Source: Sphagnum magellanicum
Lineage: Eukaryota > Streptophyta > Sphagnopsida > Sphagnales > Sphagnaceae
Direction: 5' to 3'
Assembly (NCBI GenBank): GCA_021904315.1
Contig: CM038908.1
Coordinates: forward strand, 29,626,001-29,690,000
Length of the DNA stretch: 64,000 nt
The notes beneath the pieces were generated by a model. The model was given only the letters and a program-made list of their open reading frames with translations. It ran no database searches and was not told where the DNA came from. Below, one piece after another: positions 1,004-64,000 of the stretch; position 1 is the stretch's first letter; every line of letters begins with the position of its first letter. Both the position numbers and the translations under genes were made by a program.

Positions 1004-2185
1004 GTTTTCCTTCTTGACATAATCATGAAATGCATAGCATATGGCTTCTTATTTGCACCGGAAGCATACCTTGGTGACCCATTCAACTTCATTGATGTGA
1101 TTAATATCATATTTCACGGATTGCGTTATATACCCTATAACTACACGGCCGCCCCGGCGATTAATATCATGAATGGAATACGAGTTACAAGATTTATACC
1201 TCGTATTTTTGGGTTAAAATTACTAGTTGGCACTTTGATTCGGACAATCCCATCTATGATATCCATATTTTCTTTCTTACTTGTTATTTTTTTCATTTTT
1301 GCGACTATTGGCGTCCAACAATTTCGATCCAAATTTGCAAGTTGTACAGACACCAATGTCACGAACCGTGCCGAATGTGTCGGTTTCTATTGGAATAATC
1401 TAGGACTTATGAGTCCTCGAGTATGGATGAATCAAACATTACTACATTTTGATAGTTTTGGTGCCGCCATGTTATCCTTGTTCGTTTGTTCCACCACCGA
1501 TAATTGGCTTAATTACTTTCTCCATACATCCATGGATATACCAACAACATTGTATGACAACCCCAAAAGGAACCACTCCCCTTGGAATGCATTGTTCTTT
1601 TGTGTTTTTATTGTTTTAGTAACATGGCTTGTAATGCGAATGTTGGTCGGCTTCTTCATAGACCAATTTGGCGTTATTTCGGGCTCCAAACTTCTAACCG
1701 AACGTCAAAGATTATGGCGAGACATGAATCGAATCATACAAAGCTTGACGCCCAAGCAAACGCCCAATGTGCCCCAAGGGTTTATTAGGGGGAAATGCTA
1801 CAAATTTGTGCATTCTCGAAGGTTTGAAAGGGCAATGGTGTTGATTGTTCTTGGGAATTTTGTGTATACTTCAACACATTCATATGATGCACCCGATACA
1901 CATGTAAAAGAGAGCATTCGAACAACATTTGTATTTATTTATCTTACAGAGGTCATTTTAAAACTTGTTGGAAATGAGGTACAAAATACCTTTTAGCCTA
2001 ATATGAATTTTCTCACTAAAAACTCAATCTAATTACATAATATCAAATTGGAACATGTGAATAATTTGTGTTAGAATGTGCAAATGAGTGGATTCTAGTT
2101 GAATTTGAAATGGATTCCAATCCATGATATGCATAACATGTCTTCATAGAAAAAATATAAAAATTAAAAATTTTAAAAATATAAA

Positions 2186-2230
<45 letters not shown>

Positions 2231-5200
2231 CATTCCTTTGACACACCCATGTATAATAAAACAAACTCCAAAATTTTGTAATAATGCAGTTTCAAGATTG
2301 GATGATTGATTGGTGGAATTGGGTGGAACTAGTTATTGCTTTGGGGTCTGCTTCATGTTTATTTCCAAGTCCCAAAGAGACTCAAAGGAGATTGGTAGGG
2401 AACTTGTTTGCCATAGTGCGTATATTTCGCATCATCCGATACCTTCCCACACTCAAAACATTAGTGAACACAATTATGGTCAGCTTGCCGTCGCTAATCT
2501 ATGTCATGGAATTGCTCGGGATGTCTATTTATGAGTTTTCCATCATCTTTTGGAATTCCTTTGAAAACATGGCACCTGGTAATGGCATCGGCAATGACAT
2601 AAACTTCCAAACTTTTCTTTATTCATTTGTGACAATCTTTCAGGTAAATTATATATGGAAAATTTATGATATTGAATATTGTTTCCCATTGTGTTTTTTT
2701 TTTAAAATAAATTTTTTAATTGCAAATTTGAATGGTTTAGAGCTTACTTAATTTCAAGAAGGTCCCTCTTTGCGCACACACACACACACACACATATATA
2801 TAAAAGATCACATGAAGGAGTATGTTTTAGTTTGCTATGAAATAATATTCAAATATTGAAATAATATTTTATTAAATTATTAAATATTTTAAAATTTATT
2901 TTAAAATTTAATTTTAGGCACATGATCTATATTTAAATAAATTATACTTTTAGCCTCTTAATCAATTAGTTGCACCCAATAATTTTTTTGCACACCAATT
3001 GGGAAAAAAAAAAAGAAAAAAAAAGTGACTTCTTCCACTATTAAGAGATTACAATTATCAACTTGAAACACATCCTCGTAAATTAATTAGAATTTTTGTG
3101 TGTTTAATCTTATGTCTATGAAATAACCATTGCATTCATGTTACGTAGATTAGTACAGCCGACAATTGGTCAGTTATAATGACGGATTCGATGCTTGTGC
3201 AACCATTTTGTGTTTTATTTGGAGGGAATCCAAATGATCGAACTTGTGGGTATCCAACTGCAGTTACCGTTTACTATATCATGATCATCTTTCTCAACAC
3301 TCACATTATTACCAACATTTTTATTGCTCAAATCATTGACAAAATCACTTTTGGATTGTTAAATGAAAATGCTATGGTCACACCCAAAAACTTGCACCAT
3401 TACCAAAATTTATGGGCCCAAAAAGAATATGACCCAAGGTAACATAACATGGTTGTAGATTCTAAGATTTTCATATGTAGATGTAGGAACCACCCCCAAC
3501 ATGTCAAATTTTTGTAAAACAAGTTGAATGTAATGTGTACAAAAGATATTGTGTGATTCTTGATTGAAAAATATGTTCCATTCTTAATAATAAACCATCC
3601 AATAAAAATGGTTGCAAATTATGTACATTCTCCAAACTTGTATTATATTTGCCGAATTCATTTCACAAAACACAAGTTTGGGCCAAACTTTTTTTTTTTT
3701 TTTAATCATTAAGATTTGGGTATCAAAATTATAATCTATTTTGTGGTGATCACTCAATTACATGTTCACAAATAAAATTTTCATGTGAATTTTTAAATTA
3801 AATTAAATTAAATTTAAGGTGGGTAATTTGTATTATGAATGTTTGAACATTGCTAAACATTAAAACAATTTGATGGCCAATTTGCCATGGACTATATTCA
3901 CAATGAATGTACGTATTGCTTTTGGACTTGACAGGTGTAAAGGGTTCATTGGATTACACAAATTGCGAAGTTTCATAAATGCTTTGGGGGTTCCTTTAGG
4001 TCATCGTCATAATGATCGTGAGAAATGGTAAAACAAAATTTATTGGACTTGTTTGTTTAATATTTTTGAGGATGAAAACATAAATCAAATAACATGAATG
4101 CTTGGGGGGGTATTACAACCATCATATACATGAAAAAATCAACTTTATAATAAACTAGTCAAGTGAAAAACTAATTTGCAAAAAACTTTACATGCATTAT
4201 TATTTAAGGTCTAATTTGGTATTGTTGTTGTAAGCCATTTTAAAACTCTTTTAGTGACTAAAATAGGTCAATAATTAACCTTTATTTTGACCCAAGGTGA
4301 CCACTACATTTTCTGGTTGAGTTGTCTCACAACATCAATAGCCAGATTAAATAATTTAAAACTTGTTTAAGATATATTAAATGAAATAAGAACCTCTAAT
4401 ACTGAAGTATTATTAAAAATCTTTAAATCATTTGAGACATGTTAACATGCAATAATAAGCCCCTAACTAAAGCATTATCAAAAGTCTTTCATACTTAAAT
4501 TAGGGAGGCCCAAGGGAAGAAAACTAATCCTTTCAAATAGGTAGATCTTTTCACTTCAGATACTAATCAATTTCTCTCCTAATGATTATTGGAAACTAAT
4601 GCACTATAAGCACAATGTCCACATCTTTTAGTTTCTTCAAGTTGGGGACAAGATTGTAATTGCTCAAAGGCTTGATCTTCAAAACTTTACAAGTTCCATC
4701 CATCTTTTGCCCTTTCCCATAGTTTCCTGGGCATAAAAGGTGTTTGTAATAATTTATTTTCAAACATCATCATGTGCCTTTCTTGTTTGCAATGCCAAGC
4801 TTGCCAACACCCTTGTTCCTTCTTTGCTTATGGGCTTCGTGAAGTATTCCTAACTTTCAATAGGTCTATGGTCACCCCAAAATCAATGAATAATAATTTT
4901 CATCATAGCAATAGGTAACACATAAACAATAACTATCCTAGTTACACCTACAAAGCATGTCCCCTAACTTCCCAAATAACCTTCATGTTTTAGTCCTCGA
5001 CAACCTTCAACTATATGATAGACAATTTTGACATGTGTCAACCAAATCATTCAAAGTTCAATGACTCAATATTATTTGTATAATCATCATGTAATAACAC
5101 AAGCTTCAACTACACCATATGTTTTATCTTCAATTTCAAAAGATTGCACAGTTGTGTGAAAAATGATGAAAATTTTCATTATCAATAATATGTCTCCATC

Positions 5201-6895
5201 TTCAAAATCCTTTCAAGAATCTAATTTTTTTTTATAAAAAAGTAATTTATGAACTATTTATTAACATGAATCTTAGAATTCAAAATATATTCTTTTGTCC
5301 TAACTTGAACCTTTCCAAAATCATGTTGATGCATATCTAGGTTTTCCTATATTTAGCATTTGGGGAGATTTTTATGATATCCTTTGTTAATATACTTTAT
5401 AAGTTGATTGTTCAATCTCTTCACATGTCCTCTTTGTGGATAGGTCACATTAGCCAATCGCTTCATTATCACCATGGATGATGTGGACTAAATTAAATAT
5501 ACATCATTCCATGTCTTCCTCATCATTTCCACCTTTACTTTCATCTTGACAATCTAGAAATGATATTTCTCTTTAAATTGCTAACAAATGACATTACAAA
5601 AACTTTTGCCTTTACTCTCATGTTGAATCTTAAAGTATATAGAAACCAATTGTACATCAAAGCAACAAATTTAAACAAAATTGCTTGAACTCAAAAGCTA
5701 AATTAACAAATCTATTTTCACAATTAAGTCATAATCTTCTTTTCTTAAGCGCAACAACATGCATTGATGTTGTTAACCTCATTAGGTTGTTTCTTTTTAG
5801 TCATTTCTTGGAAACTTTATAGAAAGTAACATAAATCATTATGTTCCAATGTCCCCACCTTCTTACATATTTGTAATGCACCCCAAGATGAAATTTTGGA
5901 ATGGAAAATTTGTTCATGATAATGGACCAACATTTTAATTCTTGGAACGCATAAACACTCTAAGTAAAAATATAATTCACAATTCAAATATATTTGGTTT
6001 TTCATGTCATAAAGTCAAAAATTAATGCCCTTGATTTAAAGGTCTCTCTTTAACCTTTTCATCATACCCGAACTCAGTCCTTGTCATAATGTCCAAAAAA
6101 ATAGCCTTCATTGCTTTGGGATGCATGTTAATTCTATAGTTTATCAATGTGTTGATGAACAAGAAATAAATTTCAAACATTGAAAAGACCATTATAAATG
6201 CACTTATTATCTTAGATATGAAGGGGATATTTGAAAGTAGAAGGCTCATTAGCACCAAGCATATTGACAAAGTAAGACTAGATAAACATGTCGAAATAGT
6301 TGGCATTATTGATCCATTAACCTTTCTAGACAATTGTGAAGATAATATGTTACTTGAAAATAACACTTAAATTGCTAAAATAAAAATAAAAGGTCCTTTT
6401 ATGGTGTGTAGGTATAGGATGATTGAATATGAAGTATATAGCTTTCATATGTATGGAGAGGGAGTCCCATTTCGAAATTTGTTAGAAACCCTTGTTTTAT
6501 ACAAAATTGGACCACAAGTAATGGTTTCTTTCTTCTTTGCATATTGACTTAATTTTCATATTCATGTTTACAAGATTGATCACATGAGGAAATTCATTTG
6601 AAACTAGTAACAAATGGACACAAAAATTGTGCATGAAATTAAATCTAAACCTTATTTGATATGTGAATGAAAAAATGGTTTTTAGTATTAAATATTCAAT
6701 TTGTGATGTATCTTTAAACATCTTGTCAATTGCAACTCAATTGTGACACATTAGGGACTTGAACTTTCATTGCGCATTGCAAGAGAAAAACAAGTGAAAG
6801 AAATATCTAGAATTGGAGCGGCGATCAAAATCCAAGCGGCAATGAGAATGTATTTGGTTAGAAGGAGCTTCAAATCAAATTTGGCAATTGGATAG
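1004..6895 (+). CDS. Four-domain voltage-gated cation channel, NALCN/CCH1 type (3' half, six exons)
   Basis: Exons read as 1004-1978, 2290-2643, 3149-3438, 3935-4027, 6412-6517 and 6755-6895. All introns are GT-AG, all phases join, and the 652 codons carry no stop before TAG at 6893. Numbering starts at the first visible residue. It contains domain III S2-S6 (S2 VFLLDIIMKCIAYGF; S4 with R/K every three to five residues), a pore with CSTTDNW (Asp166), and a ~60-residue III-IV linker with LLTERQRLW. Domain IV follows with S4 RIFRIIRYLP and pore STADNW (Asp448). The C-terminus has an EF-hand-like segment (YDPRCKGFIGLHKL, ~535-548) and an IQ motif (IQAAMRMYLVRR, 632-643). The linker, the SPRVW stretch before pore III and VQPFC after pore IV resemble animal NALCN and fungal CCH1 more than CaV or NaV. 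It should be a plasma-membrane cation channel with calmodulin control. Domains I-II must lie left of the window. TPC1 is excluded because TPC has two domains separated by EF-hands, not this linker. Confidence 0.88.
2193..2228. repeat. (AT)n microsatellite in channel intron
   Basis: An uninterrupted TA dinucleotide run within the intron between the channel exons ending at 1978 and starting at 2290. A shorter (CA)n run lies at 2774-2803 in the next intron. Confidence 0.9.
4028..6411 (+). other. Large channel intron
   Basis: A 2.4-kb AT-rich intron between the exon ending at 4027 (phase 2) and the exon starting at 6412, which supplies the G that completes a Trp codon. The minus strand between about 4.6 and 5.6 kb gives short coding-like stretches interrupted by stops, possibly old transposon sequence; I could not assign it. 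Nothing else recognisable. Confidence 0.55.
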
Positions 6896-7716: not shown

Positions 7717-8445
7717 GGTGAATGCACACTAAGGTGGACCAAAAGTGGCAGATGAAAAAGTCCACAGTTTTCCTTTTTAGGTTTTTAAAATTGAATGTTT
7801 GGTGTTTTGGGAATGTAAAATTGTCCATTTGAAAGTATGAGGCAAATGGAATACCTAAACCTTAAACTTATAAGTTTATAAACTGCAACACATGTTTCAA
7901 TTTAATCAACTAAGGGAAAAGTCAAAAACAAAAACATGGATTTTTTAAAAATTTATAATTGGCAGATGTTATGTAGGGTAGTAATGTCATTTTTTATAAA
8001 ATAACAATCAATTTTCAATTTTTCCATTTCAATAAATCATGGACTTTATGGACTATTGGTAATCTTATGAAAACTTGATAAATTAAAATATTAAACTTGC
8101 TTGTAAGCCTTTATTTTAACATTACAATAATTTCATAGTCATACTAAGGGAAACAAATCAACATTTCACACATGTTTATTATGCAATAAAATTCCATAAA
8201 GTTTTTTATGGACTATGACAAAAGATTTTACATTACTTTAAAAGTTCACCTTGTAATGAAATGATGCCATTTCATTTTTAAAATTTAAAATTAGATTTTA
8301 CAAATGTTGTGGATTAATTAGATGAGTCCATTCCATAATTTTCAATCATATCCCAACACATATTATACCAAACTTAGGGATACCCCCCCTAAAACTACCC
8401 CTTTGACACCAAAAAGTGGACTATTTAGTTTGTAACTACTCAACA
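7717..8445 (-). mobile_element. Non-autonomous TIR element, copy A (uninterrupted)
   Basis: About 0.7 kb. Read in reverse complement it aligns with 28448-29790 through most of its length, apart from one insertion there. The outer end carries GCACACTAAGGTGGACC, matching the inverted end motif GGCACATTAAGGTGGTATC of the other copy; the second end is more degraded. No transposase frame is present. At about 7.9 kb it preserves the empty site corresponding to the insertion in copy B. The exact left end and target duplication are uncertain. Confidence 0.6.
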
Positions 8446-12281: not shown

Positions 12282-13642
12282 CTACAGTTCCAAAACCTCT
12301 TTATATACGACATTTCGCATGTATCTAGTGGGACCCTGGCCGTTGAAAATCTTGATGTTTGCACTACTTGTGACCCGTGAAATAGCAACATATAGCTAAC
12401 CATGCGAATAGACTGGAGATGGCAAATATACCCCAATGTTGTCAAATGTCTGACCTTGACTCTTGTTGATTGTGATCACAAATGCCACTCGAATTGGAAA
12501 TTGACGACGACGCAAAACAAATGGCCAATCAATCTCGGAGGGGGACATGATGATGCGAGGTATGAACACACGTTTATCGACATTGTTCCCTGTGATGATT
12601 TCCGCTTCAACGACACGCTGACCCAATCTTTTGACAATCAACCTCGTACCATTGCACAATCCTATTGATTGATTGAGATTGCGCAACAAAAGGATTAGCA
12701 CACCCACTTTGAATTGCAGCTCATGATTTGCGATACTGCTGAATCGCAAAGTGTTTAGAAATTCCACCGGATACAATGAATCCATTGAAACTCATGCAGC
12801 AACGCTTGAACCTTCTTCTGTTGGAGCCAAAGAATTTGCGCTCAAGTACGTGTGCGATTTTTCAAATAGCGATTCTAAAATTGCATTGTTGACTTCATCA
12901 ACGTCAGTATTTTTGGGGGCTAGAATGTTACGTTGCATAAAATACATGGCATCCCCAGAGTGGTAGCGGTGATCCGGATAGATGGTTCGAATTAATTTTT
13001 TTAAATTGCAATCTTCTGCTGGCAGCCTCATATGGGATGGAATCTTGATCCAATCTGGATCGACACCTTCTTCTCCTGCAATGGCGGGAAGACTACCGTC
13101 TCCAACATTCAACACCCATTTGGCAGACTCTTGCTGCTCTTCAGAATTGGTTGCCATGACTTGCATGTTGATATGAAGACGAAGAATTGTAACATGCTGC
13201 CAAAGATGCGATCGAGGCAAGGAAGCACTGACAATGTCTTTTCGTCCCACCTTGGGAACGATAGGCAAGATCTGTCGAAAATCCCCACCAAAGACCATGG
13301 TTTTCCCATTGAAGATTTTCCCGGTTGCCTGTGCGTCATCCAATTGCATCAAATCACGCAGGGTGTGATCAACAGTTTCGAAAACTCGGCGATGCATCAT
13401 CAGTGCCTCATCCCAAATGATTAGATCAGCTTTACGCACCAACTCGGCCACTTTCATCTGTTGTGTGATGTTGCAAGTTGACTCATCGTGTAGATCAATC
13501 GGAATCTTGAATGGGCGGTTCTGCCGCCCAGAAGCAACATAGATGCAATTCCTGATGAGGCAACTGCAAGCACGATTTTGCCTTGCCCTCGTAGACGGGA
13601 TAGAAGTGTTGTCCAAACAAATGTTTTACCGGTTCCACCACT
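12282..13642 (-). pseudogene. Decayed Helitron helicase (PIF1-like domain)
   Basis: Helicase part of a Rep-Hel Helitron protein. The reverse complement contains a Walker A motif SGGTGKT (near 13640), the motif II region IIWDEALMMHRR, motif III GGDFRQILP, then NGTRLIVKRLG, ITINKSQGQTFDNIGVYLP and LYVAISRVTS at the C-terminus. The frame is broken by a shift between the Walker A segment and [10 protein letters not shown], by an in-frame TGA at 12792-12794, and by a TAG where family members have Gln just before LYVAISRV. The Rep nuclease half was not found. It is more GC-rich than its surroundings, consistent with later arrival than the AT-rich spacer. Confidence 0.85.
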
Positions 13643-28447: not shown

Positions 28448-29790
28448 TTGGCATACTAAGGTGTCCATTTTTTAATGTCACAAAGGCACTTTTGGGGTGG
28501 GTAGCTTTAAATTTAGTATAATATGTGTTGGGATATGATTGAAAATTATAGAAAGGACTCATTTTAATAATCTATAACATTTGTAAAATCAAATTGAAAA
28601 TTTGAAAATAAAATGCCATCATTTCATTACAAGCTTGACTTTTAAAGTGATGTAACATTTTCTATCACAGTCCATAAAAAACATTTATGGACTTCTATTA
28701 CATAATAAACAAATGTAAAATGTTTTTTTTTTCCTAGTATGATTGTGAAGGTATTGTAATGTTAAAATAATGGCTTACGAGTAAGTTTAATAGTTTAATT
28801 TATCAAGATTTCATAAGATTTCCAATATTCTATAAAGTCCATGATTTATTAAAATGGACAAATTGAGGTTTGTTGTTTTGTAGAAAATGACATTATTACC
28901 TTACATAAAAATGGCCAATTTTAAAAATTGAAAAAACCCATTTTTTGGTTCTAACTTTTCCTTTAGCTGATCAAGGGTGAAAACACACTAAAGTGGTTAA
29001 ATTTTGGTGGATCAAAGTCCCTTTTCAAAGTCCTTTTCTAATGTAATTGAAAATTGGTTTAAAATATGAATATTTAGATTATATTGAAAGTATTTTTTTT
29101 TTCCATTTATAATTTCAATTCATGATGTTATAAGACATATAAAAAATATCACAAAAGTTTAAATAATTATTTTAAATGTTTAAAAAGGCTTTTAAAATAA
29201 TTAAAAATTTTGGGATTTTGAAAAGTCCATAACATAATAAATTAAAATCACATTCCATTCATTCAATGGATCTTTAGTTTCTTAAATATAATCCATCTAA
29301 TATCCCAAAGTTTCAAACAAATGAAACGAACACATTATAAGATAAAAGTCCATATCCATGAATTTTATAGGGTGTGACAAGACTTGTTGCCAAGATTCAA
29401 AAGTTCATTACTTATTAAATATTTAGGATTTTGATGTGTTTCTTTGCATTTTTAAAATGCCAACTCCATTAGCATTACATATGTGAGTCCCTTTCTTGAT
29501 ATTTCAATGAAAATATTATTGTTTTATATTTAAGTTTCAAAGAGATGCAAGAAAAACTACAAGTGTGACACCTAAAAAAGGACTACATAGTGTGCTTTCA
29601 CCTTTAAATCGAAACATGTGTCACAATTTAAAAACTTGTAAGTTTAAGTTTTAGGTGTTCCATTCACTTCCTACTTTCAAATGGACAATTTTATGTTGCC
29701 AAAACATTAAACATTTGAATTCAATTTTTTTAAAGAAACAAAACTATGGACTCCATATGTGCCACTTTTGATACCACCTTAATGTGCCAA
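28448..29790 (+). mobile_element. Non-autonomous TIR element, copy B (interrupted)
   Basis: Inverted ends cttggcatactaaggtg (28447 on) and, reverse-complemented at the right end, cttggcacattaaggtgg. Its two halves (28448-28973 and 29604-29790) align continuously with the reverse complement of 7717-8445. The ~630-bp segment between them is a second TIR element absent from the other copy. No transposase frame. Confidence 0.65.
28974..29603 (+). mobile_element. TIR element nested inside copy B
   Basis: About 630 bp bounded by gggtgaaaacacactaaagt at the left and, in reverse complement at the right, aggtgaaagcacactatgta: imperfect terminal inverted repeats of about 20 bp. Immediate flanks are ..gatcaa and ttaaatcg.., against an empty site ..gattaaattg.. 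near 7.9 kb. This suggests a 3-4 bp TAA/TTAA-like target duplication (PIF/Harbinger-like). A relative lies at 31168-31777. No coding capacity. Confidence 0.65.
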
Positions 29791-29799
29791 GACCCATCG

Positions 29800-32700
29800 G
29801 TGGCCCACATCGACTTTAAAACAAATTTGAAGCCAATGTATCAAGTAATACACTTCTAGATTTGGCAATAAGGGATGAAAATATTCCATTTCTATCATGA
29901 CATGGACACTACATGTTCACAAACATGGCTTAATACCAACTTCCTATTTCTTGTTTCAATCCAATCCACCTCCATTCAAGTGGGTATATCTTGTGATCAC
30001 ATTCCAACATTCTCTCCACCAACTCCTACCATTACTTCCTTCCTATTAAATATTTTGCCAAATAGGGTCACTTCATCCTTATTAGACATTGTCATCCCCT
30101 CTTTTCCTTTGGTCTAAACATCTTAGACCTTTGCTATAGTCCTTCTTCTACATCATGTTCATCTTTTGTATCTTCATCTTCTCCTTCTAGCTTTTATATG
30201 CGAACATGAACTACATCAAGCGTATTGATGTACTCCTTGGTATGATTGAAATGTCATTTCTTCATTTTTGCCTATGCTTTTTAAAAACTGAAATGAAATT
30301 TGTTGGAAATTAAACAACTAATTAGTCATAAGAATTATTTTTGCTTAACTTTCTATGGTAGTGCTCTTCCACTCTGTGATGTTTAATAACACCTTAAAAT
30401 TCTTCTTTATGTTTTTATTTTGGCTTTTTTATTCCTTAGCTCCTTGTGCAACATTTTTTCCTTTGCCATTATCTTCTTATAATCATCATTATATGCATGA
30501 TGACTATGCTTTAATCCTTCTTTTGGTTTTTTTATTATAATATCATGATCATGATCTTGCAATTTATATCTTCAAATCCCTTTAGCTCTTCATAAAACAA
30601 CTTTTTTTCCTCCTTCAACATTTTGATTTCATGATTTTAGAATGAAATTTCAATATCTGCCTTTGCAATAAACTCTAATTGATTCTCTTGCATCTTTTGT
30701 TTCTCCATGTCCATTTGACCTTGTCAATATTTACCTAATTTTGTAGCTTTTCATAATGCTTCTCCCACTTTGAAATATTATGTTGAAATTTTAAAACCTT
30801 CTTTTCTATAGCCTTGAGTGTAATTTCTACCTTTTGGTGATTGAATTCACTTTGATCTAGGCTAGCCTTTGCTTGTGAGTATCAAATTTCCAATTTTGTT
30901 ACAACCTTTTTTTTTTAATCTCCTCTTGCTTCTACTTCAAGGAACAAACTAATGTAGCAAATTGTGAGGTTTTCCATTCCAATTCTCCCCAATGAGTACT
31001 TTGTTATACCTCATCTACTAAATATTTTTTTCTTGTTGCTAATATTCCTATACACAAGTTCTCATTATTGGTACCAAAAATTATGTTGTAATTTCTTTTA
31101 GTTCATCTTCCAAATTTTTTCCTTTCATTGAAGTAGGCAAAAAAATTTGTTCATCACCTCTTCGGTTGGATGAAAGCATATTAAAGTGGACCAAAACTAG
31201 CAAATCAAAGTCCCTTTTGAAAGTCCATTTCTAGTGTATTCAAAATTGGTTTAAAATTGACCATGTAACTTTCATTCGAAAAATTCAGATTTTTCCAATT
31301 TTTTTTCATGGCCACCATGTTGAAAACCATTTAAAAGGTTTTTCTTAAAACAAAATCAAGAAAATCAACATTTTTTATGCCTTCATGGACTTTGTGAAAT
31401 ATTTCAAGGGCTACATATTTGATGTTATGGAACACAAAAGTTAAGACAATGTTTCATCCATTAAATGAGCCTTTAATGTCATAAACTTCAAATATTTTAT
31501 ATTTCAAAAATTCACATACATTGTAAAAACACATTGTGAAATAAAAGTCCATATCCAAGATTTTATAGTTTGTGACACTTTGTTTCGCCAAGATTGTAAA
31601 GTCCATAATTAATTGAACATTCATGATTTTGATGTGTTTTTTTCGATGTTTATATACTTCATGTGTTAGCTTCACATAAATGAGTCCCTTTTTGTTATGA
31701 TTTTATGTAGGAACATTCAAATCCAAGAAAAATTGCCACTGTGATTCCCATAATGGTCCATTGTAGTATGCAACCACTTGGTTCTGCAAGACTATGTCCG
31801 CAATTTGATTATGTGTTGCTTCTACAAGTTCCTCCCAAATTGGACTTGGCATTGGTATGACCTTGTCTCAATGTTTTATTAAAAACTCTTCCATCTCCTT
31901 TCCTCTTCCTTTAGGCAACTTCACTAAAGCCTTTTCTATTGGCATTTCAACTTGTATTTTGTCTTTTCTTCCTTCTTGTTCCTCTTTGTCATTGATTTTA
32001 ATGATCTTTTCTTCAAAAACCACTTGTTCAATTTTGGCATTAGTTGGCTTAAGCTCAACCTCATTGCCAATTACTTGTGTTGATTCTAATGTTGATTCCT
32101 AATTCTAGTATCTTCATCAACATTGGTATCCCCCTCTTGGATTTGAGATAAGTCTGTGTTTTTGTCCGCCAAATTGGATGTTGTTTCCTTTCCCTTATTC
32201 TTCTTTTGGTTCACTAGCATTACCACATGGACATCCACCACAATGCACCTTTTTTTATATCATGGAATTCCTATTCCCTCCTTAACAAACTTCTTTAGAT
32301 AATACTTGCCTACTATGGTTAAAGTTAGTGTTATCAAAGTGTTTTTCAATTTTCAAGCCTTTTTTTGGATAACTAGAATTTTGTTTTGCAATTTTTGAAC
32401 ATACCAAACAACCCAATTAATTGGCCCTTCCTATATTGCTTGGATTGTTGTTACAAGGACTCCATGTGCAAAGTTGGGCTCCAAGTGCAAACTTGTTGCC
32501 TTGTCTCAAAATGAAGGTTTCGATTAATGCTTATAACCTCATAATCTTTAATAGTCTGTTTGCTTTGATTATTATGTAACCAGATTGAGGAACGTAATGG
32601 TCTCTCTCTTCTCCTATGAAATAACTAGCTATAGAAGTTTTGTAACCCTCCCTTCTTCCTAGTACTAATCCACTACAAAGAAGTTTAAAAACTTCAACAA

Positions 32701-37666: not shown

Positions 37667-38590
37667 TCAACTGTCCACCTCTTTGAATGGTCCATCAACC
37701 TCCTCATGTGCAGATGGATGGCTCAATGGACATTTCACTTCAATGGACAATTCTTGGTCATGACTGAAACGGACAATTAAACAGGTGATGTTATCACAAC
37801 TTCCTCTGCGATAGGCTTCATCAGTGAGCCTGTTGGCAGCCTCCTCAGCATTTGTGATGGACTCTATCATTGACACCGCTTCCTGGTTTGACACCACATC
37901 CCACAGTCCGTCACTTGCCAGAATCAAGAAATCAACTCCCTCAATCGTATCCTCCTGAATCTCAGGCTCTGCCACAACATATTGCTTTAACAGTCGGTCA
38001 CCAAATGCACGGGATACAGCAAGAACACCACCTACTCGCCAAGTGCCAACCCACATCACAACCCCTCCTGCATCCTCAATGCGTTGTCGTTCATCAGTTC
38101 GGTTGGGTTTGTGATCATCTGACAGAGCGAATGCCTTGCCACCTCTGCAAATCACAGCCCTGGAATCACCTACATTGGCAACAAGCAAACGATCCCCCAC
38201 CAAGACAGCCGTGGAAGCAGTTGACCCTGCATCCCTCTGCTGATTGTTCTCTTCTTTCAAATAGTCTTCGTCTGTCTGCTTGTAGGACTCCACTATAGCT
38301 AACCTAGTGTTGTCTAAAAAATTAGGATGATTCATCAAGTTCTCAAAGAGGTTTTCCTTCACATATTCTGCAGCCCGGGAACCACCATGTCCATCAAAAA
38401 CTCCAAATAACCCAATCACCTGATTGCCAAACGTTTTGCTCTTGGCATCATGGAAATCCTCCATGGAAGACCTTTTCCCGCACAAGCTTGAATATCCAAA
38501 GCTGAACTTCCGATTTTCACTGTCCCCATGTCCAGTACTGTCATGGATGCTCCTCTCTGGGGGAGATGAGGGGTCGTTCATGGAAATCAT
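37667..38590 (-). CDS. Protein phosphatase 2C, WIN2-like (group F1), copy 1
   Basis: Mn2+/Mg2+-dependent Ser/Thr phosphatase, 307 residues. Motifs: RSSMED (40-45), FDGHGG (65-70), DAGSTAS (120-126), NVGDSRAV (139-146), [28 protein letters not shown] (186-198), [11 protein letters not shown] (225-235) and CDNITC (265-270). All metal-binding aspartates (66, 227, 266) are present. The family resembles Arabidopsis WIN2 and relatives, soluble signalling phosphatases. I start at ATG 38590 rather than six codons upstream because the aligned ATG is conserved in the second copy (..ctggaaccatga). The whole frame is uninterrupted by introns, whereas I recall multi-exon genes in Arabidopsis, so a retrogene origin is possible. 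The second copy lies 14 kb away in the same orientation. Confidence 0.94.
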
Positions 38591-40420
38591 GGTTCCAGCA
38601 CAGAACAATAAATATACACAATGTCTTGAGAGATGCTTTCACGTTGTGTCTCCGGTTTAGACTCCACACCTAACTCCAACAGAGCAATGATCACAACCCT
38701 TCTGCTAGTGTGCCGGAGCAATGGCTACCTCTGTCTGTTTGTGGAGCTTGCTGTGGTAGGTATCAGAGGACTGTAACTGGATCAGTTGCATGAATTGACT
38801 ACCTACTCACCTCTCCCTTCCCTTGCTCTTCGTAGCGAGTTGATGCCTTCTTAGTGGTTAGGGCTTTGCTTTCTCCTTAAGCTGCTCATGAGAAAATAAA
38901 CAAATCATTCGCTTTACTGCAACAACAAAAAACATACAAACTTTAAGAAGACCATCATCATTTCTGCACTGATCAAGTTTCACATAGGCTATGGCCCTAC
39001 CAAAATTGAATTGACTTCTCACCACCATTTTCTATTCTAGCACAAAGCTGGTCACACTGAGATTATGAACTGGTAAGTAAGCAAAAACAAGACAAACGAA
39101 AATCTCCAAAAATCTCCAGAAGTCATTATGTGACACATTATTCTGCTTCAAGGGCTTCACAGTATTCCTTGCATTATTAGCTCAGCAATGCCTCTCTTTA
39201 CAAAATAGAGAAGATGGAAACATGCTCTCACATCACCTGCAGTTGAGCAAGTATGATTTCAAATATTGCAGGGAAATTTTTTCTGCATTGATCCCAGCAA
39301 TTAACATGACTTAAGAGCCTATTGAACTTAAGAAACGAAGCTGCCTCATTTCATCCTACGAACTTTGTGTCGGAAGGGTAAGAATGCGTGTAGCTTGGAA
39401 GGCACACTTTAGAAAGGAACTTGGAAAGAATAGAATGTTCTTCACCTTCTTGTGGCTTTTAAACTACAGAAGCAGGTAATGGAAGAGCACGCCTTCTCTC
39501 GTGCACATACATCCTCATCAACAAAGGAAGCTAGCTATACATACATCAGCACACTCTTAAAACCAAACCTCAAAACACGTCTAAAACACATCTGCAACAC
39601 ATTTGAGTAGTAACATGAGAAGCACAAGAGTTGATCAAAACTACTCGGATACGAGAGAAAGAGAGAGACAGAGACAGAGAGAGACATAATCTACCCTACC
39701 TTGCTGGCCAGTAGATTGCGCGCCTGTCTATGAAAACCAGTGACTATTCCTTTCTCCGCTCCTCTCAAGAACTATATGTACAAACGAAGCCAAGACTTGG
39801 AAGGCGCGTGATCAATAAGATAAGAAGGCCAGTCAGTCTCCCAGCAACTTCCAAAACGACTGCATATACACTGAAACAAGCAACCAAACGGAAACTACTC
39901 ACTCCTTACTCCTCGTCTTCCGAGTGTCGGTCCCGCAGAACAAATTGATCACTGTCTCTGACGCAGCTCTCTCCCCGGTGACGCGCGCAAGCGCGGAGCG
40001 TATCAGCGTTGCCGCTTTGCAAACGGCGGGATGCGTTGCTCAGGGCTTGCGCTACTAGGGTTTCTGTTGGGTTCCTTTTTCTTTCGAAGAAACAGCAACG
40101 AATAAAGCCTATCCACATTTTCTGAGAAGTTTCGAGCACGCGCCTTGTTTGTAATTGGTCAGTTTCGTGCTGTTTCCGACACGGGAAATCTACCGCCTCT
40201 TTCTTTTTCTCTCTCTCTCTCTCTTGCGCTGTCTTTTTTTTCTCTCTCTCTCTCTCTTGCGCTCTCTTTCTCTTCTCTCTCTCTCTCTTGCGCTCTCTCT
40301 TTCTTTTCTCTTTCTCTCTCTCTCTCTTCTCTCTCTCTTTTAGGATCTTTGATTCTCTTTTGTTTTGGCTTTGTGGAAATAGAGTAACTGTTTCTCGGAT
40401 CCTTCCTGGTGTTTTCAATA
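38591..40420 (-). promoter_or_regulatory. Putative leader and promoter of PP2C copy 1
   Basis: The first ~300 bp upstream align in part with the 5' flank of copy 2. Farther up, a GC-richer stretch (39900-40100) contains cgctactagggtttctgttg with a telo-box-like core, then a long CT tract. This arrangement fits a transcription start near 40.0-40.2 kb and a long leader, perhaps with an intron. No start site can be fixed from sequence alone. Confidence 0.4.
40195..40345. repeat. (CT)n pyrimidine tract
   Basis: Four blocks of (CT)5-8 separated by tcttgcgctct-like interruptions. Translating the other strand gives an Arg/Glu/Lys-rich pseudo-protein that is only the microsatellite. Its position upstream of the PP2C leader is typical of plant promoter pyrimidine patches. 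Confidence 0.8.
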
Positions 40421-52100: not shown

Positions 52101-52949
52101 TCAAAGGTCATGATTGAAACGGACAATTATACAGGTGATGTTGTCACAACTTCCTCTCCGATATGCTTCATCAGTGAGCCTGTTGGCAGCCTCCTCAGCA
52201 TCTGTGATGGACTCTATTATTGACACTGCTTCCTGATTTGACACCACATCCCACAGTCCATCACTTGCCAGAATCAGGAAATCGACTCCCTCCTCAATTG
52301 TATCCTCCTGAATCTCAGGCTCTGCCACAACATACCGCTTCAACAGCCGGTTACCAAATGCACGGGATACAGCAAGAACACCTCCCACTCGCCAAGTGCC
52401 ATCCCACATCACAACCCCTCCTGCATCCTCAATGCGTCGTCGTTCATCAATCCGGTTGGGTTTGTGATCATTTGACAGAGCAAATGCCTTGCCACCTCTG
52501 CAAATCACAGCCCTAGAATCGCCAACATTGGCAACAAGCAAACAGTCCCCCACCAGGACAGCTGTGGAAGCTGTTGACCCTGCATCCCTCTGCTGATTGC
52601 TCTCTGCTCTCAAATAATCTTGGTCTGTCTGCTTGTAGGACTCAGCTATGGCTAACTTGGTGTCATCAATAAATTTAGGATGCTTCAACAAGTTATCAAA
52701 GAGGTTTTTCTTCACATATTCTGCAGCCCGGGAACCACCATGTCCATCAAAAACTCCAAATAACCCAATCACCTGATCACCAACTTTTGAGCTCTTGGCA
52801 TCATGGAAATCCTCCATGGAAGTCCTTCTTCCACGCAAGCTTGAATATCCATAGCTGAATTTCATATTTTCACTCAGGCCCCCACCACTAGCAGGAGTAT
52901 TCCCATGGATGTTGTTACCTTTGGATAAAGGTTTGGTTTTAAAATTCAT
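52101..52949 (-). CDS. Protein phosphatase 2C, WIN2-like (group F1), copy 2
   Basis: Paralogue of the gene at 37667-38590, 282 residues. All catalytic motifs are kept: [42 protein letters not shown] and CDNITC. The start is the ATG aligned with copy 1. The protein ends at RFNHDL, about 28 residues before the end of copy 1. The DNA beyond the stop still resembles the missing tail (catctgcacatgagga in copy 1 against aatctgcacatgagca here), so a small indel made an early stop. The catalytic core should be active. Alignable 5' and 3' flanks show DNA-level duplication, not independent retrocopies. The frame is intronless in both copies. Confidence 0.93.
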
Positions 52950-55267
52950 GGTTCCAGTACTGACAGATGTGATGCCTAGAATGATCCTTGTGCAATGAAG
53001 CTCACACTCGCCTCCAGTTTCTCTATACCTGACTCCAGAAGAGCATTGAACACAACCTTATGCTTGGCATGCTGGAGCAACAGTTGTCTCTGTGGATCTT
53101 ATTGCAGGAGGTCTCACATTGGCACACTTGGCGAACCCTTACACTCTTTGCTGTTTGTTGCATAAGAACACTCTCCTAGCTTGTAGGGCTAGCTCCATGA
53201 GCTGCTCACAAAGAAACAATAGATCATTCGATTGCAGATTATATGCTGAGACTTGTGAAAGTGAAAACACATAACATTCTTGGCATTTGGATTTCAGATC
53301 TTGAAGTGGCCCTATTGGTATGGAATGACTGACACTTATAAGCATTGATTCTACAATAGTGCTGCTTTATTTGCGATCACTGTTGCTAGTGAATACTCAA
53401 CCAGAGTTGTCTGACTTGTTGTCTACAGCTGTGTTTGTTCAGTAGTCAGACATATCTATGAGATTGTAGAGAAAATTCCACAATAACACTTTGAAGTAAC
53501 TGTGATGTCAGTTCCACCGAACCAAAAGAGATACAACAAAAAGGAGTGCAGCTGTGACCTTGTAAGTATCATTCACAAAGTATCCAACCATCACCTTCCT
53601 CACAAATGGCAGAGACAAGCTGCCATCAGTCCCCACTGACTTCATCAGCTTCCGACAGCAGATGTAGATAAGAGGTAGGAATAAGGCCCACAGACAGGGG
53701 CATTACCAGAATAAGGTGACTGCCCGAGGTGGCAGCCAAGGACAGCATCAAATTCTGATAATGCCCCCATCTGAGGGCCTTACTGTGCATAATGACCTGT
53801 CATGACAAGATCTGATGGCCAAGATCTTTTCATCATGCCAAGAAAAAATGGCAGGTCCTTACCAAATGTGTAAGAGCCCAGCCCACCCAGATACATAAGA
53901 TGACCTTCCTATGTCAGGAGGAATCTTACAGATTTAAGGCTCCCTCCCAATACACTGGGAAGTCTGTAACATGTCATTACATATTTATAATCTGGTCAAA
54001 ATTTTGGGCAAAAAACTAAACAAAAGTTTGCATCCTCAGTTTTGTCACATCTCTGGATGCAAAACGTAAGATTCAGTCATGACTTCAGCTAGCACTCGAG
54101 AGACATATCTAATAGTGTACCCATTCAAGCTGCAACAAGCTTGTGAAGCTTTGTTTCATTTTAGCTTGCCCCTGTGTACAAGCATGCAAGCATACAGCAT
54201 AGAGCGCTCTACATTGAAGATAGTGGTCAGGGCCTCCTGTACCCTGAACATATCCTTTCAAGCTCTAATGGTTGTAGTCTCCAGAGGGGCCTAATTGTTC
54301 TACCATTACACAGATGCGTTGACTGAATTCATGAAAACACGTGGAAGTAAAACGGACCTCTGGAAAATCTCCAGATTAAAGTGGCAAATTCAGGGTCCGA
54401 TTGCAGCGTTCCTTGAGCTGCTACACACACCATACCTCTGTATTTGCTGACGGTTTTGTGCGGTAGAAAGCTCAGGAAAATATAGTCATATAACGTGCAA
54501 TCGGGGACAATCAATTTGGAACATTGTCTAGAAGAAATTTATGGTTTGGTCTCAGCAATGAACACGAGCACGAACTAGCACCATTTTAAACTTTTATATT
54601 GCAAGCAGGTTGTGCAATCTCTGAAGCAAGACTACTTATGCTACGGACTAGTATTCCATATGTCAGATATGCTTGGATCTTGATACAGGAAAAGATCGTC
54701 TACGATAGAAGCCTTATTTTCCAGCTTCTTCAATTGTTTCACTACTTCGACACTGAAGCACGCAAGGCGCAGTACAACAGGCTCTCTCAACTCTCAACCT
54801 ATATATCTTAACAAGAAGCTAGTCTAATCAGGACGATCTCGTTGAAAACCTCAAACATACCTGGCCGTTATGAGAAAAACCTTAGCCAAGAAAGTTGCCG
54901 AAACCTGCGATTGTAGCGAAGAAAGCACACTTTCTCGATCAACGAATCGCGGCTTTGAGAAAGCATTCCTAAACAAAAGGCTCTGAGAGTTTCTGAAACG
55001 AAGCCCTGGAATCGAAGCCCCGAGAATTTTGCAGTTGGAGCACCTTCTTCAGCACGACGAAAAATCTGTGTCACAAATCTTCGTCACTGCTTAGAGACAA
55101 CAAAGGTACAAAACGCAAACTCCTGCCCGCAACTCCTGCTCACTCCTCCCGTCCGGCTCGCAGCCGGCGAGCTCTCATCCCGCCCGCGATGGTGAGAAAA
55201 ACGAAAGAAAGGGAGAGAGAGTGTGTATGTGTGTGTGTATAGGAAGTGTGGCATTAGGGTTTCGACA
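52950..55267 (-). promoter_or_regulatory. Leader and promoter region of PP2C copy 2
   Basis: The first ~300 bp align in pieces with the 5' flank of copy 1, for example gagctgctcacaaagaaacaa against aagctgctcatgagaaaataa. Near 55.05-55.26 kb the sequence becomes GC-richer with (GT)n and ggcattagggtttcgac, a telo-box-like core. A start of transcription near 55.2 kb is likely, giving a 2.2-kb 5' region that probably contains an intron. Confidence 0.4.
53681..53783. repeat. Fold-back element family H2, copy 2
   Basis: Arms of about 38 bp: left taaggcccacagacaggggc, right (reverse complement) taaggccctcagatgggggc, followed by attaccagaataagg against attatcagaatttg. The core is gaggtggcagccaaggacag. 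Sits inside the putative leader region of the second PP2C. Confidence 0.72.
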
Positions 55268-55505
55268 TTGCGTTTCACACTGCACTTGATCTCACTGGCC
55301 ATTGACGTGACGCCCGGGCCACGAAAGTCTCCGGCATTTTATCCTCAAGGGTCTCTAAATTGCGTTCACACTGCGTTTAATTTCATTGGCCATTGACCTG
55401 ACGCCCGGGCCACGAAACTCTCCGGCATTTTATCCTAAAGGGTCTCTACATGCGTTCACACCGCGCTTAATTTCATTGGCCATTGACCTGATGCCCGGGC
55501 CACGA
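55268..55505 (-). promoter_or_regulatory. ~91-bp tandem repeats upstream of PP2C copy 2
   Basis: About 2.6 units with a 90-91 bp period; the palindromic gcccgggc recurs near 55313, 55403 and 55493. Each unit also holds actggccattgac/attggccattgac (a CCAAT box on the gene strand in units 2 and 3), a TGACG-like motif in at least the first two, and a gcgtt-cacac-gcg segment. They lie just upstream of the inferred start region, so they may be reiterated promoter modules. A regulatory role is inference. Confidence 0.55.
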
Positions 55506-55509
55506 AACT

Positions 55510-61740: not shown

Positions 61741-64000
61741 CTTCTCTCCAAGCTTAAAAGCAGGTAATCCTCGATAGGGGCATCCACCACATCGGAAAGC
61801 ATCACCTAGTCCACACTGCAGCCACCGAACAGAGATTGACATAAACCTAATTGGGTGTAGATTGGCAAGCAGCATCCAGAATGCTGTATAGGCATCAATT
61901 GCATGGAACTCATTTCATTTAAATAAGTCAATGTCAGAAGTAGATCATTGATCAACAGGCCAAAAGAAAGCATTTTGGACAACCAGAATTCCCACTTGAA
62001 GAAATAGGATGAACAAGACACAACTTTCACGCTCAACTGATCAGACTAATTACTGAGGAAAGCTGATATTGAGTGAACAGAGAATGTAGTTGTTCTTTCC
62101 CATGATGCAGGACCTGCACTTGTCGTCAACAGCAGTCTTGGTCACGATAGCAGACAACTTTCAGGCTCATGTAGGCTTAGGGAGTACCTCTTGCCAAAAG
62201 ACTCATGGACCAAGACAGTGAAAAAATCAGGAAACTCACATTTCCACATGCAGATTGTGGGTTGTTGAGTTGAGCAGCCGTAAGTGGGGTCTTTTCCTCA
62301 AGTTCTGCACGGCCGCATGTGCAGTTTTTGCATGCTTTCTTTCCTGCTTTCTCTACTTCACAATCATCTGCACCTGCACCCCAGCTTTACATCATATCAC
62401 AGTTGTTGGTGAATGGGCACCATCAAATTTCTTCCTTCAAACCATGTACCCAAACATGGCATTTCATAGATCACCTTTCTCAGCAGACTTACAGTGACAT
62501 TTCTGCATAGTGCCCAGTCATGACCACAAACTTTTAGTTTACATTAATATCATTAACCACATATTTGTAGTAGCACAAAAAGGAAACAAAAAACCCACCA
62601 GGTAGTACAGGTCGCTTGAGATCATCTTCATCTAGCAAGGCATCCTCATCCACAAACTCATCTCCATCATCAACAACAGAGGTTGCCTTCCAGGTGTTTG
62701 CAAGGGGCAAAGATGTGTCATTGACATCCTCTGATGACAAACGGAGAGTATTTCCAAGGGACACCAGTGTGGATTCTGCCTCAACACCAACAAGCAAGAC
62801 ACTGATATTGATACTACAGCCCAAGAAAAATGTAAGCATTTAAATTTGAAATCCAGGCACCTTGAAGTGCAAGAAAAGACCAACTTTCCTAGAATTATAC
62901 CACAACATGTTCTTCAAAGAAAATTTTGGAGTTAGTATCCAGATGCAGGGGTGGGTCAAAAGAAACAAGACATTGCTTAATATGACCAAACAGGAACAAC
63001 ATCTAGTCCAGCCAAGGCTTGCAACCAAGAAAAGATTGTTGGGGAGATTGACAGTCAATCATTGGTAAGACTCCAATCACTTGTGCACAATCCATCTATG
63101 GTCTTTGGATAAAGTTAATCCAGATTACTTCAAGTTTTGGAGCAGGCAAAACTGTGAAAGTTCTAACACACAGTATGAGGACAAGCTAATTTGGAGACTG
63201 ACCTTGTTCCAAAGTTGCTTTCTTCTTTATCCCAAATGATGATCCTGTCTCCCAAGTGGGCTTCAGCACTCTCACCTACACGAGGACCATGGAAGTGCTA
63301 TCAGTTTCAAAGCTGCAGCTGCACATGAGGACGTTAGCTATTGTTCTTGCAAGTCTTGGCTCTATCATTTGTTGCATCCATATCACACCTTCAGTAGACT
63401 CTGGTGGACAATAGATGAAGATATTCAAATTGCCAAGTGAATATAGAGAACACATTGTCCCCAAATATGTGCTACTATGAAACTCTGAGCTTGCAAGAAA
63501 TGAGGTAGTCAGCAGTTATGAACCGTACAGCAACAGGCTTGAGGAGTGGGCCATGCTCCGACCCTGTGGCACTTGTCGAATATGACTCCGCTAGGCCAAC
63601 ACCACTCACACACTCTGCCGTTTGGACATCCACAAAGCCTGCCAGCAACAGATTGCGTTCCAGTACTGCTTGTGTCTGCACTGGAGCATCGCCTAACCTC
63701 TGTGGACATACATAAATCACCCACAGAAAATCAACCACAAGACACAATGCTGAAAGACTTCGGCTCGAAGTCTTCATTGAACACAAAATAGCCTCCTCAT
63801 CTTTGCAAAGGATCTGAGTTCGTGGAAAATCAATACTTTGTGACTCAAAAGCATCATGGAAAACATTTTACTGACTTGCTGGTCTGCTTCGGCCACATCT
63901 TGGCAAGCGAAAGGCTCCTGCAGCCAAAGAACACCACCTGGCCTAAGCACATGCACTATCTCAGACAACCACGCTTTCGTATGATGACCGGGGTTCTCCA
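61741..64000 (-). CDS. DRE2: Anamorsin / DRE2, cytosolic Fe-S cluster assembly factor (partial)
   Basis: Electron-transfer protein of the cytosolic Fe-S assembly machinery, acting with the diflavin reductase TAH18/ATR3. Exons in reading order: 64000-63876 (runs off the edge), 63699-63610, 63275-63203, 62775-62599, 62373-62240 and 61815-61741; phases agree across all GT-AG introns. The methyltransferase-like domain gives [14 protein letters not shown] and [18 protein letters not shown]; then [16 protein letters not shown]; then the acidic linker [20 protein letters not shown]. The [2Fe-2S] motif is [14 protein letters not shown], and the twin CX2C motif spans an exon junction: [22 protein letters not shown]. 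All eight cluster cysteines are present. The segment between FVDVQ and KPTW is shorter than in Arabidopsis, so a small exon may be missed there. At 62373 two alternative AG acceptors lie six bases apart. Confidence 0.93.

Follow-up and report, generated by a model that had tools for sequence, protein, structure and literature searches.

A probable four-domain voltage-gated-type cation channel encoded by two inverted genes in the peat moss Sphagnum magellanicum

Whether a land plant can carry an intact four-domain channel, a member of the family of large four-part ion channels that drive nerve and muscle signals in animals, is the question raised by a 64,000-nucleotide stretch of the Sphagnum magellanicum genome (the window; C2:29626001-29690000, C2 being the window's own contig of 36,273,875 bases, CM038908.1 in assembly GCA_021904315.1). 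Embryophytes are stated to lack four-domain channels (PMC5824947, PMC6259924, PMC11085791), and the accepted view of how plants are excited and take in calcium includes this lack. No contrary report of a land-plant four-domain channel appeared in titles and abstract openings among the matches listed, preprints and most subscription papers lying outside the coverage, and the main text of the Sphagnum genome paper (PMC9946827) contains no word starting with "channel". An earlier note, made from the letters of the window, had proposed that six exons at its left end encode the C-terminal half of a channel of the NALCN/CCH1 type. Based on an analysis of the parent genome (438,994,042 bases, 31 contigs), it is considered highly probable that a genuine four-domain cation channel of the voltage-gated type is encoded here in the peat moss, present as two intact, divergently oriented copies under purifying selection, with the mechanism and history proposed below.

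Gene structure within and beyond the window

At window positions 1004-6895, six exons separated by GT-AG introns of 311, 505, 496, 2,384 and 237 bases join in phase into 652 codons plus a stop. They are exons 18-23 of a gene termed copy A and cover most of domain III (DIII), domain IV (DIV) and the IQ tail:

1004..1978, + strand: exon 18, DIII segments S2-S6 with the pore, the III-IV linker and the start of DIV (Ion_trans 3.1e-32; splice phases)
1175..1219, + strand: DIII S4, three Arg and one Lys
1343..1378, + strand: DIII turret, two conserved cysteines
1493..1507, + strand: DIII selectivity filter TTDNW, with Asp followed two residues later by Trp
1688..1717, + strand: III-IV linker motif KLLTERQRLW
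2290..2643, + strand: exon 19, DIV S2-S5 and the start of the pore loop (Ion_trans 1.3e-17)
2413..2457, + strand: DIV S4, three Arg and one Lys
3149..3438, + strand: exon 20, DIV filter TADNW (3155-3169), VQPFC (3197-3211), TCG turret cysteines and S6
3935..4027, + strand: exon 21, proximal C-terminal domain (splice phases)
6412..6517, + strand: exon 22, C-terminal domain (acceptor and donor common to copy B)
6755..6895, + strand: exon 23, IQ motif (core 6824-6847; Pfam IQ 7.5e-6) and stop codon

The stop-free stretch around the first of these exons extends over 330 codons, compared with at most 173 codons when the first 7 kb was Markov-shuffled 200 times, and the period-3 signal reaches 7.2 in the coding sequence of the window versus 0.7-1.9 in five non-coding stretches, so that the coding signal lies far above chance. 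The encoded protein matches Ion_trans in Pfam at 7.1e-60 in two stretches, together with IQ (exon 20, searched singly, gave no Pfam match), and its best matches in the PDB are chains of CaV, NaV and NALCN. Against CaV1.1, the first half of this query scores 104 bits in domain III and 26 bits in domain I. Exon 18 shows 70% identity to the paralogous copy B over 330 aligned positions, and the acceptor at 6412 is common to both copies, while an alternative at 6418 occurs only in copy A. The in-phase chain of 652 codons was thus confirmed by its GT-AG introns, splice phases and coding signal, and the landmarks that had been named for it (the DIII pore, LLTERQRLW, VQPFC and the IQ motif) are all present.

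The remainder of the gene was modelled by comparing the 70 kb to the left of the window with an inverted homologous stretch, which revealed conserved exons throughout. A phase-consistent exon chain was then built from splice sites common to both copies; inspection completed two of the exons and the final six in copy B. The resulting models are as follows:

C2:29608031-29632895, + strand: copy A, 23 exons, 1,822 residues
about C2:29605711-29607032, + strand: predicted upstream (N-terminal) exon of copy A
C2:29570299-29595833, - strand: copy B, 23 exons, 1,830 residues

The exons of copy A outside the window lie 6-18 kb to its left, and copy B follows about 12 kb to the left of copy A in inverted orientation, which makes the pair divergent. 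Neither copy contains an internal stop, and every modelled intron is GT-AG. With splicing as predicted, Ion_trans and IQ are matched in both copies, and copy A contains four Ion_trans stretches (3e-136). Assembly of domains I and II (DI, DII) to the left, which had been named as a check on the original proposal, was therefore achieved in the parent genome, and an intact four-domain channel in plant DNA is supported. Searching the whole genome with the window protein gave 12 matches, half of them in copy A and half in copy B, so that two copies were counted at that sensitivity. A stretch resembling the predicted N-terminal exon of copy A also occurs upstream at copy B, with 36% identity. The N-terminal region of copy A (C2:29605200-29606000) contains acidic repeats of about 60 residues.

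Pore, voltage sensor and subfamily placement

The selectivity filter reads E/E/D/D in both copies, and in each of the four domains a Trp stands two positions after the filter residue (LEGW, TESW, TDNW and ADNW in copy A; IEGW, SESW, TDNW and ADNW in copy B). Members that let Ca2+ through can usually be told by an all-acidic filter ring, and on the strength of this ring the channel would most likely admit Ca2+, perhaps along with other cations, across the plasma membrane. The turret cysteines follow a 4-0-2-2 layout in both copies (four in L5I, none in L5II, two in L5III and two in L6IV). The III-IV linker comes to 51 residues when its ends are set approximately. In copy A, S4 has three Arg in every domain except DII, which has two; a Lys is added to them in DIII and in DIV. 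These charges make a voltage response likely, though possibly a weak one, and the three-Arg S4 helices suggest that the channel most likely opens on depolarisation. The predicted C-terminal IQ motif should bind calmodulin, by which the channel would most likely be tuned.

Of the known systems, the closest in the PDB is the animal high-voltage-activated (HVA) CaV channel CaV1.2 (PDB 8fd7), which shares four six-transmembrane (6TM) domains, an all-acidic filter ring, the turret cysteine layout, a short III-IV linker and an IQ tail. A profile of the two copies scored 386 bits against CaV1.2, 304 against NaV1.8 and 243 against NALCN. Over DIII-DIV, the identity to animal CaV channels is about 24-28%, and the two copies differ from these in having E/E/D/D instead of E/E/E/E and Ser in place of the Asp that follows their DII filter residue. 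The E/E/E/E filter of HVA CaV channels and the D/E/K/A filter of NaV channels are thus both absent. Plant TPC1 is a two-domain, vacuolar channel that belongs to the same Ion_trans superfamily, and the four domains of copies A and B exclude this identity. Green-algal channels such as Chlamydomonas CAV2 are of the same overall kind within the green lineage, a likeness drawn from their description; CAV2 is flagellar and required for the photophobic response (PMC11085791).

The assignment to NALCN/CCH1-type leak channels had been made because of LLTERQRLW and VQPFC, and it is unlikely. The LLTxxQRxW and VQP(P)FC motifs are indeed common to NALCN, the NALCN alignment runs through to the C-terminal tail (query 4-620) where those of CaV1.2 and CaV1.3 end at 562, and one best tree joins the window protein to NALCN with support of 56/61. 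However, a hydrophobic-triplet-T(S) motif of the linker type is present in many clades (PMC5824947), and the aligned site of NaV1.7 reads IFMTEEQKKYY, so that LLTERQRLW is not diagnostic for NALCN. The NALCN filter is E/E/K/E and that of NaV D/E/K/A (PMC5824947), whereas the DIII lysine of NALCN is replaced by Asp in both moss copies. The NALCN scores likewise fall below those of CaV, both in a single stretch (133 bits, versus 151 for CaV1.2) and in the profile. The approximately unbiased (AU) test rejected none of three topologies in six- and seven-taxon trees, several of whose reference rows were partial, the CaV1.3 row containing a stretch of X, and an LG+C20 run ranked the CaV grouping first with branch lengths at the limit and not to be trusted. 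A notable absence of S4 charges is described for NALCN/Cch (PMC6259924), and the deep nodes of the family are unresolved even with 277 sequences (PMC5824947). The subfamily label is therefore not supported, and the predicted proteins are classed as four-domain voltage-gated cation channels (FVCCs; 4x6TM) with the subfamily left unassigned.

The genome also contains the ordinary plant relatives of such channels. Its Ion_trans matches comprise 28 rows, six of them in copies A and B; potassium-channel-type loci lie on C14, C3 and C13, the TTVGYGD motif occurring in loci of this type, and four TPC1-like loci were recognised by eye, the one compared matching solved plant-type TPC1 chains at 1.2e-40. 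The sequences inspected also included loci on C4 and C11. The channel pair is additional to these potassium-channel and TPC1-like genes. A Mid1-type partner (PF12929) gave no match in the genome, and none in the control genomes either. No relatives were found in viral_contigs with the largest window exon, the window-NALCN alignment or the two-copy alignment, nor in genome_contigs with the window-NALCN alignment; as these collections consist of viral and prokaryotic DNA, the null says nothing on distribution in plants.

Selection, methylation decay and competing explanations

Over 1,817 aligned residues, the two copies share 69.8% identity, with 0.67 synonymous (dS) and 0.18 nonsynonymous (dN) substitutions per site, and their ratio (omega) of 0.27 indicates that the channel protein is under purifying selection. 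By region, omega is 0.27 before DI, 0.25 in DI, 0.23 in DII, 0.17 in DIII and 0.21 in DIV, with 0.18 in the III-IV linker, 0.21 in the C-terminal domain, 0.50 in the I-II linker and 0.46 in the II-III linker. Across the predicted proteins, this profile is the pattern of a working channel.

A second line of evidence comes from the decay of methylatable sites, measured as the share of C among C+T in each context, with CWG denoting CAG/CTG sites. In three AT-rich stretches of the window, this share is 1.6-5.7% for CG, 3.6-5.5% for CHG and 35-40% for CHH, and CHG has for the most part survived in the blocks that carry genes. The introns of copies A and B show 4.0 and 3.9% for CG, 4.5 and 5.3% for CWG and 35% for CHH, a CG and CHG decay that matches the AT-rich blocks around them; CHG methylation by chromomethylases is a green-plant trait (PMC5410703). 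The observed/expected ratio of CAG/CTG is 0.27 in the channel exons of the window and 0.15 in the introns, as compared with 0.98 and 1.03 in two neighbouring PP2C genes (PP2Ca and PP2Cb), 1.14 in an expansin gene, 0.83 in an anamorsin region and 0.87 in a PIF1 stretch. CG decay was also found in several of the neighbouring genes.

Within the coding sequence, CWG at third codon positions has fallen to 5.3% and 7.6% C (copies A and B), near intron level, and at codon positions 1-2 18% and 22% C are kept (p 5e-5 and 4e-5). CG is likewise spared at codon positions 1-2 versus 3 (p 6e-7 and 1e-5), and CHH shows no codon-position difference in either copy (p 0.42 and 0.52). For the window exons alone, the CWG contrast is not significant (p 0.17); it is significant over the two full genes. 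These contrasts indicate that the genes have long resided in methylated DNA while the protein was protected. In exon 18 (1004-1978), CAG/CTG is scarce at all codon positions with CG near normal (observed/expected 0.95), an odd feature without explanation.

Against inheritance from green algae, an ancient horizontal gain by the moss lineage could be proposed, since none of these channels is reported in the land plants covered by the papers cited at the outset. The decay of synonymous CWG sites nearly to intron level and the dS of 0.67 between the copies point to long residence, which counts against a recent gain, not an ancient one, and the proposal is regarded as rather doubtful. A pseudogene, or a gene dying in silent chromatin, would be consistent with the CG and CHG decay of the DNA in which both copies lie, a combination that the tested neighbours do not share, and with an apparent frame change in the N-terminal repeats of copy A. 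This explanation is very improbable in view of the open frames of 1,822 and 1,830 codons, an omega that is lowest in the membrane domains, and the fact that both copies spare CG and CWG in the first two codon positions. A chimeric contig or contamination, with the channel derived from an alga, fungus, oomycete or animal, was among the outcomes named in the earlier note as fatal to its proposal. It is hardly credible, although the first 7 kb has no more than a single weak match of 45 bp to the remainder of the window: the channel lies inside a 36.27-Mb contig that also carries DUF1997 (between the copies), CIPK (past copy B) and, to the right, expansin, PP2C and anamorsin genes, its introns have decayed in the plant manner, and a repeat past its stop recurs beyond the expansin gene.

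Several points weigh against the interpretation of the pair as inherited, working channel genes. The codon-position contrast was computed without control for amino-acid composition, and the trees were built without algal, fungal (Cch) or other plant channels. The apparent frame change in copy A, near a run of A, makes its start codon uncertain; the assembly may have slipped there, or translation may start further on. Largely silent genes would be another reading of the CHG decay, and the expression, conduction, gating and location proposed for both copies are predictions from sequence.

Genomic surroundings and biological meaning

An expansin gene and two PP2C genes lie on the same contig to the right of the channel, and a DUF1997 gene sits between copies A and B. 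The other features located around the pair are the following:

C2:29563086-29566979: CIPK (kinase and NAF domains; NAF 41 bits), about 3 kb past the 3' end of copy B
12396-13625, - strand: PIF1-like helicase, two adjoining open frames, CG and CHG little decayed
37667-38638 and 52101-53057, - strand: two PP2C genes, 86% identical, each with its domain in one open frame
63777-63998, - strand: probable anamorsin (DRE2), truncated at the right edge of the window (25.9 bits versus a Pfam cut-off of 27.1)
55256-55509: tandem array of 91 bases
40197-40350: tandem array of CT-rich 33-39 bases

A dispersed repeat at 7724-8432, starting 829 bases past the channel stop, recurs inverted at 28452-29787, beyond the expansin gene, with 78-82% identity; part of it is also found at 31168-31698 (67%). 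The CIPK, a calcium-signalling kinase, adjoins a calcium-type channel, possibly by chance. The PIF1-like stretch is perhaps a young Helitron-type insertion. Rfam and tRNA scans found nothing, and tetranucleotide profiles were uninformative.

Across the window (1-64000) and C2:29556001-29638000, the DNA is divided into sharp-edged blocks, AT-rich with CG and CHG nearly erased versus gene blocks with CHG largely intact, a map that reads like fossil chromatin domains. The channel pair occupies two long CWG-poor blocks, and the DUF1997 gene between them and the CIPK block are CWG-normal. In the PP2C genes, CG is erased at synonymous sites and CHG is not, a mark resembling gene-body methylation.

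The CHG and CG decay in both channel gene bodies, with little or no CHG decay in the tested neighbours, suggests a channel that is narrowly expressed and probably silent across most tissues; it might be used at a narrow stage such as the biflagellate sperm, a possibility that the earlier note had raised for motile sperm. The most economical history would be inheritance from FVCCs of green algae, the channel having been lost in those land plants that were studied before, but not in all. In its fullest form, this proposal is tentative: an algal-inherited, animal-style four-domain Ca2+ channel, encoded by a divergent inverted pair that is ordinarily methylated and silent, may be switched on briefly, for example in swimming sperm, where it could direct the flagella in the way known for channels of algae and animals. 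For sperm chemotaxis in plants, the Ca2+ channels have yet to be identified, and checking of more plant species has been called for (PMC5406480). With two intact genes under selection in a sequenced plant, the question becomes directly testable, and if the channel was inherited, its loss would move from before the land plants to within them.

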